From assembly GCA_001749745.1 (NCBI GenBank), contig JWTM01000418.1, positions 62,001-126,000 of the forward strand: DNA of 64,000 bases. The letters are read 5' to 3'. Under the pieces are notes generated by a model that ran no database searches, was not told where the DNA came from, and saw only the letters and a list, made by a program, of their open reading frames with translations. The DNA comes from Candidatus Marispirochaeta associata (GTDB lineage Bacteria; Spirochaetota; Spirochaetia; JC444; Marispirochaetaceae). Every line of letters begins with the position of its first letter. Position 1 is the first letter of the stretch. Shown piece by piece: positions 32,769 to 45,606 of this stretch. The translations under genes and the position numbers were made by a program.

Positions 32769-32794
32769 GTGATTATCAAGCGTAATATAAATTA

Positions 32795-32890
32795 CGAACC
32801 GTCAATCCCTTCGCCGGTATTACCCGGATCAGGTCATAAGGTCGGAATCCGAAGATCCCCTCTCAGCCGTCAATCACAGCTCCCTTTGAC
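32795..32890 (-). ncRNA. TPP riboswitch (THI element)
   Basis: The minus strand carries the conserved THI-box cores in order: GGGAGC, GGCTGAGAGGGGA, GACCTTATGACCTGATCCGG, GTAATACCGGCGAAGGGA. The aptamer is complete by eye and is followed by a terminator, indicating repression of the MTH1187-thiXYZ operon when TPP is plentiful. Confidence 0.95.
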
Positions 32891-32897
32891 ATGGTTA

Positions 32898-43692: not shown

Positions 43693-43721
43693 TTGATTAA
43701 ATGGAATCAATGGGCTAGTTT
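43693..43721 (+). promoter_or_regulatory. Possible promoter of the leuA leader
   Basis: TTGATT (43693-43698), a 17-bp spacer and TAGTTT (43716-43721). The predicted start is 1-2 nt before the leader-peptide ATG, which has no SD. Confidence 0.4.
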
Positions 43722-43729
43722 TATTCCCA

Positions 43730-43831
43730 ATGAAGCGCGAACTGCTCCTAAACCTACTGCTTAGCCTGCTCGGTCTCCTACTCCTGGGGGAAGCGCCCGA
43801 GCCATGCAGAGGAACGAGGGGAAGCGCATAA
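43730..43831 (+). CDS. leuL: Leucine-rich leader peptide of leuA (attenuator)
   Basis: A 33-codon ORF with 12 Leu codons among codons 5-19 (CTG, CTC, CTA, CTT), then GEAPEPCRGTRGSA and TAA at 43829-43831. The leucine run, the position 95 nt upstream of leuA, and the following mutually exclusive hairpins match a ribosome-mediated attenuator. No SD is visible; the promoter places the start next to the mRNA 5' end. The name follows the enteric leuL by analogy. Confidence 0.8.
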   Translation: MKRELLLNLLLSLLGLLLLGEAPEPCRGTRGSA

Positions 43832-43858
43832 GCTTCTATACCTTTTGGAACTTGCATG
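43803..43858 (+). promoter_or_regulatory. Antiterminator pairing of the leu leader
   Basis: CATGCA (43803-43808) is complementary to TGCATG (43853-43858). This pairing would use up the first bases of the terminator's 5' arm (43857-43864). A ribosome stalled on the Leu codons leaves CATGCA free; a ribosome at the stop codon covers it. Confidence 0.6.
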
Positions 43859-43900
43859 CCATGGGCCGCCTGAATAGGGACGGACCATGGCATTTTTTTT
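43857..43900 (+). terminator. Attenuator terminator of leuA
   Basis: TGCCATGG (43857-43864) pairs perfectly with CCATGGCA (43885-43892), with a further inner CCG/CGG pairing, followed by eight T. It sits 27 nt before the leuA ATG. Confidence 0.85.
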
Positions 43901-43926
43901 AGCCTAATTGCGACGGAGGATACAGG

Positions 43927-45606
43927 ATGAAAACCATGAATTATGCGAAGTACAAAGCCTATAGACCCATGGGATTGAGCGACCGCACCTGGCCCGACCA
44001 GGTGATCGACCAGGCACCCCTGTGGTGCAGCGTCGACCTCAGGGACGGGAACCAGGCGCTGAGCGTACCGATGAACATGGAAAAGAAGCTGACCATGTTT
44101 AAACTGTTAACCGATATCGGTTTTAAGGAGATCGAGGTCGGCTTTCCTTCCTCGGCGGAGATCGAGTTCAACTTCATGCGTCGCCTGATAGAGGATAATC
44201 TGATCCCCGAGGATGTAACCGTCCAAGTCCTGGTCCAGGCCCGGGAACATCTGATACGCCGCACCTTCGAAGCCCTGAAGGGGGTGAAGAATGCGATCGT
44301 CCATATCTACAATTCGACCTCGACCACTCAACGCCGGGTCGTCTTCAACAAGAGCCAGCAGGAGATCATCGATATCGCCGTCGCCGGCGCCAAACTGGTC
44401 AAGGAGCTGGGCGATGCCGAAAAGAATCCCGGCATCCGCTACGAATATAGCCCCGAAAGCTTTACCGGCACGGAGATGGAGTTTGCCGCCGAAATATGCA
44501 ATGCGGTAATCGACGTCCTCGATCCTAGGCCGGATCATAAACTGGTGATAAACCTTCCGGCCACCGTCGAAGCCCACACCCCGAACATTCATGCCGATCA
44601 GATCGAATGGATGTGTCGTCATCTCGACCGGCGAGATTCGATTCTGGTCAGTCTTCACACCCATAACGACCGGGGGACCGGCGTAGCCGCCACCGAACTG
44701 GCCCTGATGGCCGGGGCCGATCGGGTGGAGGGAACCCTCTTCGGCAACGGCGAACGCACCGGCAACGCCGACCTAACGACTCTGGCACTCAACATCTTCA
44801 GTCAAGGCGTTGATCCCAAGCTCGATCTGAGCGACATCAACTACGTACGAGACGTCTATCGCTACTGCACCGGTATGGATATCCACCCCCGCCACCCCTA
44901 TGTGGGCGAGCTGGTCTATACCGCCTTTTCCGGCTCCCACCAAGATGCGATCAACAAAGGGATGCACGCCCGTACCGCCGGCGAAGACGAAGTCTGGGAC
45001 GTTCCCTACCTGCCGATCGATCCTCAGGATGTAGGTCGCTCCTACAAATCGATCGTACGTATCAACAGCCAGTCCGGTAAAGGCGGCGTAGCCTACATCA
45101 TGGACTCCGAGTTTGGTTTTGCCCTGCCGAAGGCGATGCACCCCGAGTTCGGCCTTTTGATCCAGAAGGAGACCGACAAGCGGGAGGACGAGCTGGTGCC
45201 AGAAGAGATCTGGTCGGTCTTCGAGAAATCCTATCTGACGACGGATACCCCTTTCGAACTGGACCATGTCAATGTGCACATGGAATCCGATAAAGCGACC
45301 AAGCAGCATACCGCGGTGGTCACCGGAAAGGTATTGAAAAACGGCAAAGGGGTTGCGATTGAAGGCCGGGGAAACGGTCCGATCGACGCCTTTGTGCACG
45401 GTCTGAAGGAGCATCTCGATTTCGACTTCCGCTTCGAATCCTTCGACGAGCACGCCATCAACGAGGGCGCCGACGCCCAGGCGGTGGCCTATATCTCGAT
45501 CATTAGTGAATCGAAGAAGCGCTACTTCGGCGCCGGGGTCGATACGGATATCTCCTTCGCCTCCTTCAAGGCGATCTTGAGCGCCCTGAACCGAGCTTCA
45601 GCCTAG
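43927..45606 (+). CDS. leuA: 2-isopropylmalate synthase (LeuA, long form)
   Basis: A 559-aa enzyme condensing acetyl-CoA with 2-ketoisovalerate in the first leucine-specific step. WCSVDLRDGNQAL has the catalytic metal-binding Asp/Gln region, the HxH metal ligands are in SLHTHNDRGTGVAATELALMAGADRVEGTLFGNGERTGNADL, and the C-terminal regulatory (LeuA dimer) domain starts after about residue 430. GGAGGATACAGG precedes the ATG. Expression is predicted to fall when leucyl-tRNA is plentiful, through the leader. No leuB/C/D follows. Confidence 0.96.
   Translation: MKTMNYAKYKAYRPMGLSDRTWPDQVIDQAPLWCSVDLRDGNQALSVPMNMEKKLTMFKLLTDIGFKEIEVGFPSSAEIEFNFMRRLIEDNLIPEDVTVQVLVQAREHLIRRTFEALKGVKNAIVHIYNSTSTTQRRVVFNKSQQEIIDIAVAGAKLVKELGDAEKNPGIRYEYSPESFTGTEMEFAAEICNAVIDVLDPRPDHKLVINLPATVEAHTPNIHADQIEWMCRHLDRRDSILVSLHTHNDRGTGVAATELALMAGADRVEGTLFGNGERTGNADLTTLALNIFSQGVDPKLDLSDINYVRDVYRYCTGMDIHPRHPYVGELVYTAFSGSHQDAINKGMHARTAGEDEVWDVPYLPIDPQDVGRSYKSIVRINSQSGKGGVAYIMDSEFGFALPKAMHPEFGLLIQKETDKREDELVPEEIWSVFEKSYLTTDTPFELDHVNVHMESDKATKQHTAVVTGKVLKNGKGVAIEGRGNGPIDAFVHGLKEHLDFDFRFESFDEHAINEGADAQAVAYISIISESKKRYFGAGVDTDISFASFKAILSALNRASA

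Follow-up and report, generated by a model that had tools for sequence, protein, structure and literature searches.

Ribosome-dependent attenuation is a textbook principle, and leaderless leaders are already known elsewhere. The enterobacterial leuABCD attenuator (the Rfam Leu leader) resembles the locus described here in its Leu-run peptide, its alternative terminator and antiterminator and its position upstream of leuA; our locus differs in the predicted leaderless start of its leader, in a yeast-type leuA, in having leuC elsewhere in the genome, and in giving no match to the Rfam Leu leader. In Sinorhizobium meliloti the trpL attenuator RNA, rnTrpL, begins at the leader ATG and the peptide is leaderless (PMC7298713, PMC10117765): this too is a ribosome-dependent transcription attenuator with a leaderless leader peptide, as predicted for our element, but it is built on Trp rather than Leu, belongs to an alphaproteobacterium, and releases an RNA and a peptide that act in trans. 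Mycobacterial polycysteine leaderless short ORFs control biosynthetic genes (PMC4633059; compare the title of Canestrari et al. 2020), and thus share with our locus a leaderless amino-acid-run uORF before a biosynthetic gene, though the amino acid is cysteine and the process is described as translation attenuation. The actinobacterial LEU element also places a Leu-run uORF upstream of leuA, but has a conserved pseudoknot, its Leu run pairing with the leuA Shine-Dalgarno sequence, and no terminator switch (PMC1262725). Within the phylum, the Leptospira ilvB (WRC-14-1) motif is likewise a predicted RNA element of a branched-chain amino acid gene; it differs in the gene concerned, in being a riboswitch candidate, and in its seven examples being confined to Leptospira (PMC8632094). 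No previous description of a leuA attenuator in spirochaetes came to light in a literature search that covered few subscription papers.

The window, the whole 64,000-nucleotide stretch of Candidatus Marispirochaeta associata DNA that was analysed, had been ascribed in the initial annotation to a likely spirochaete. The FlaA filament family PF04620, which we take to be spirochaete-specific, supports this: it occurs in this genome, 25 of the 31 genomes that were searched have it, and the 14 control genomes all lack it. The features of the leuA region are as follows.

43693-43721, plus strand: sigma-70-type promoter, with -35 TTGATT (43693-43698), a 17-nt spacer and -10 TAGTTT (43716-43721).
43730-43831, plus strand: leader peptide ORF of 33 codons, predicted leaderless; its ATG lies 8 nt past the -10 and lacks a Shine-Dalgarno sequence.
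43742-43786, plus strand: putative sensor run, codons 5-19 of the leader, Leu at 12 of 15 codons (4 CTG, 4 CTC, 3 CTA, 1 CTT).
43803-43809, plus strand: predicted antiterminator 5' arm CATGCAG, from folding, its pairing continuing upstream via GCCC.
43821-43836, plus strand: predicted inner hairpin GAAGC-GCATAA-GCTTC, from folding, whose loop contains the leader stop codon (43829-43831).
43852-43858, plus strand: predicted antiterminator 3' arm TTGCATG, partly shared with the base of the terminator 5' arm.
43856-43900, plus strand: intrinsic terminator ATGCCATGG...CCATGGCAT followed by T8, about -23 kcal/mol.
43915-43919, plus strand: leuA Shine-Dalgarno sequence GGAGG, 7 nt ahead of the leuA ATG.
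43927-45606, plus strand: leuA, yeast-type 2-isopropylmalate synthase of 559 aa (NF002991, 847 bits; TIGR00970, 736 bits; both above cut-off).

The leuA region matched no Rfam family at its gathering threshold, and below threshold gave chance-level matches only, the leuA-Halobacteria model scoring 17.2 bits against a gathering score of 47.9; nor did the T-box riboswitch covariance model match there. On another part of the window, at 32788-32896 of the minus strand, lies a TPP riboswitch aptamer (72.9 bits).

The sequence features expected of an attenuator are found together: a leader ORF of Leu codons ahead of a leucine-synthesis gene, a terminator between that ORF and leuA, and, in the segment that the ribosome would control, a predicted and mutually exclusive antiterminator, weak in one family of the class (f24). 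Comparison of sequences, encompassing the ORF, its conservation, its Leu specificity, the terminator, the co-changing arm and the promoter position, makes it near certain that the element is present and conserved, and argues that it is very probably a ribosome-mediated transcription attenuator responding to charged leucyl-tRNA. Leucine sensing by a ribosome stalled in the leader is probable because the arrangement recurs across the whole spirochaete class.

The terminator hairpin proper occupies 43856-43893, with 9 bp at its base, and its T8 tract 43893-43900; the initial annotation had placed both correctly. It had also proposed an antiterminator formed by CATGCA and TGCATG, and this pairing is indeed present and overlaps the terminator arm, although it is larger than the six pairs envisaged: CATGCAG and TTGCATG make seven, to which folding adds GCCC with GGGC and the inner hairpin. 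What fails is the idea that a ribosome at the stop codon covers the antiterminator arm. A ribosome resting there should cover some 15-17 nt of the upstream RNA; the arm, 20-26 nt ahead of the stop codon (43829), is just outside this standard footprint and should therefore stay uncovered. It is only during transit of codons about 20-32 that a ribosome is over the arm.

When leucine is scarce, the ribosome would stall in the Leu run, leaving the arm that follows free to pair with the nascent 5' arm of the terminator and permitting read-through into leuA. When leucine is plentiful, the ribosome would reach the stop codon, crossing the arm on its way and opening the inner hairpin that bears the stop; with this hairpin open the two arms would be kept apart, the terminator would form and transcription would cease. 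Folding of the RNA with the full terminator made gives the terminator as the minimum-energy state even with a stalled ribosome in place, and the proposed switch would therefore need kinetic trapping during transcription. In other attenuators it is by forming first that the antiterminator wins.

The two other genomes of the genus (G001 and G002), in which leuA is 83-84% identical, have an upstream region of the same design, with Leu run, terminator and antiterminator arm all retained. All three species share Leu at 11 of the 12 positions, with synonymous codon changes at eight of these and an unchanged codon at three, while most non-Leu codons near the run have changed amino acid. The stem of the inner hairpin is kept in both (GAAG-TTAG-CTTC). 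Base pairs, counted by script across the three sequences, are retained at 9 of 9 positions in the terminator and 7 of 7 in the antiterminator; two antiterminator pairs show a one-sided change that still allows pairing, and no fully compensatory pair change occurs among these three sequences. Genome G000 has an estimated contamination of 11%.

Beyond the genus, 395 genomes of the class were searched, leuA was found in 120, and the upstream regions of 119 loci were read; a terminator precedes leuA at 93 of these. The terminator-bearing loci were scanned, blind to Leu content, for a sigma-70 promoter with an ATG or GTG 3-14 nt past its -10 that opens an ORF of 8-60 codons ending before the terminator. 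Matches were obtained at 71 of the 93 loci, as against 2.8% of shuffled sequences, and matches in which 5 or more of 12 codons are Leu at 51 of the 93, as against 0.1% of shuffles; the Leu-bearing matches come from 15 of 17 families and 26 of 36 genera. In most of the families with leuA in the class, all three elements (leader ORF, terminator and antiterminator arm) are present. The exception in family f26 is clear: 11 of its 12 leuA loci have no recognisable leader, and 10 of these (e.g. L005, L109, L111) have no terminator either. Conservation of the Leu-rich ORF and the hairpin in close relatives, on which the initial annotation had staked its proposal, is thus found both within the genus and in most families that carry leuA.

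In most families the segment directly past the Leu run resembles the 3' arm of the terminator and pairs with the 5' arm (e.g. AACAGCGGGTGAGC to ACCCGCTGTC, and GGCCTGGGTTG to CAGCCCAGGC). The sequence of the terminator differs between families and that of the leader arm differs along with it, such that the arm pairs better with its own terminator than with those of other families in 27 of the 29 genera outside f24 (sign test, p = 8e-7). Folds computed for the RNA that begins at a stalled ribosome and stops where the terminator 5' arm ends contain a long antiterminator at most loci examined; at several, the leader stop codon falls in or near the loop of the antiterminator's inner hairpin. Family f24, represented by many genomes, has short leaders of about 16-25 aa in which the arm mostly coincides with the stop codon or follows it, and its predicted antiterminators are weak, no better than cross-family pairs.

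These data bear on the alternative that the leader has no genuine antiterminator: the advance of the ribosome would govern Rho or the translation of leuA, and the hairpin would just set the basal level of read-through. Such a role for ribosome progress is suspected for actinobacterial leuA, where mutations in the Leu-run leader were inconsistent with classical attenuation (PMC1262725), and the weak antiterminators of f24 would fit it. The intrinsic terminators of the leader-bearing loci are nevertheless strong, the arms co-change with them in all but two of the genera outside f24, and at the present locus the leuA Shine-Dalgarno sequence lies outside the switching arms; we consider this alternative very unlikely.

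The ORF (MKRELLLNLLLSLLGLLLLGEAPEPCRGTRGSA) was found where the initial annotation had it, with the same count of Leu codons. All remaining ORFs of the window that are 15-60 aa long stay at or below 7 Leu per 15 codons, and a count of 10 was not reached once in 3000 dinucleotide shuffles of the region. Across the class, 88 ten-residue leader cores contain 492 Leu, as against 14 Ile and 20 Phe. Codon choice is also distinctive, CTA making up 36% of Leu codons in the leaders, as against 3% in leuA and 5% in the long ORFs of the window. The leuL leader of E. coli likewise uses CTA codons. A second ORF (MQRNEGKRISFYTFWNLHAMGRLNRDGPWHFF; 43804-43902, plus strand) starts inside the antiterminator arm and crosses the terminator, and is probably a product of chance. 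That the leader ORF is a genuine gene for a small membrane peptide or lipoprotein, the hairpin being merely that small gene's terminator, would suit the hydrophobic stretch following Lys/Arg and the later Cys seen in the genus, but we give this reading almost no credence and rejected it on Leu specificity and CTA bias: the cores are nearly all Leu with few other hydrophobic residues such as Ile or Phe, CTA is enriched, the peptide outside the Leu run shows no conservation between families, the f24 leaders have a length of only some 16-25 aa, and the ORF consistently stands ahead of leuA with its 3' part pairing with the terminator arm.

Transcription starts usually lie 6-9 nt past the -10, and in 63 of the 65 Leu-bearing matches this is the distance from -10 to start codon, whereas the shuffled sequences fill the whole range allowed. 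The promoter of G001 and G002 is TTGAAT-17-TACTTT, and identical spacing is seen in most class members. The first transcribed base would thus belong to the leader ATG or lie no more than about two bases from it, and the ribosome would accordingly, judging from promoter position, enter at the 5' end with no Shine-Dalgarno sequence to guide it. With a threshold of at least -6 kcal/mol, such a sequence precedes 2 of the 88 leaders, a set picked by Leu content or promoter position, as against 88 of 88 leuA starts, a figure that takes the best among several candidate starts. Because of the promoter position and the absence of Shine-Dalgarno sequences across the class, we regard translation of the leader from a leaderless mRNA as likely, as the initial annotation had suggested for this locus. 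Leaderless mRNAs are abundant in Leptospira, another spirochaete (PMC5243855). It is possible, though on balance doubtful, that leaderless initiation is itself a selected component of the switch which fixes the relative timing of ribosome and polymerase, the ribosome loading once the first codon emerges from RNA polymerase; on this view the design would have been kept class-wide despite repeated replacement of the terminator and antiterminator sequences.

Other loci were viewed in the same light. The leuC upstream regions of the genus carry no Leu leader, and the ilvB loci examined in the genus no convincing one. Upstream of ilvB in three other class members (L207, L213 and L221, in G025, G004 and G018 respectively) are short Ile/Leu-rich ORFs (e.g. 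MNRNTVLHGQRQRFFPSLALLSIIIILLLIPFRGAREA), two of which begin 7-9 nt past a promoter; these are probable ilvB attenuators with leaders that would likewise be leaderless. Outside the spirochaetes, Leu-rich uORFs precede related leuA genes in Calditrichaeota (L024-L026) and at several loci mostly of Rhizobiales (L034, L063, L084, L085, L091 and others), and are absent from the Opitutaceae-type loci of related leuA. Several of these non-spirochaete uORFs start 7-8 nt past a promoter-like -10, and leaderless leuA leaders may extend beyond the spirochaetes.

The comparative evidence, drawn from about 15 families, would extend ribosome-mediated amino-acid attenuation to the spirochaetes. It also offers a large natural series of predicted leaderless leader peptides, through which the contribution of leaderless initiation to the timing of attenuation becomes testable, and it provides a well-delimited element on which to map 5' ends and study the leucine response in cultivable members.
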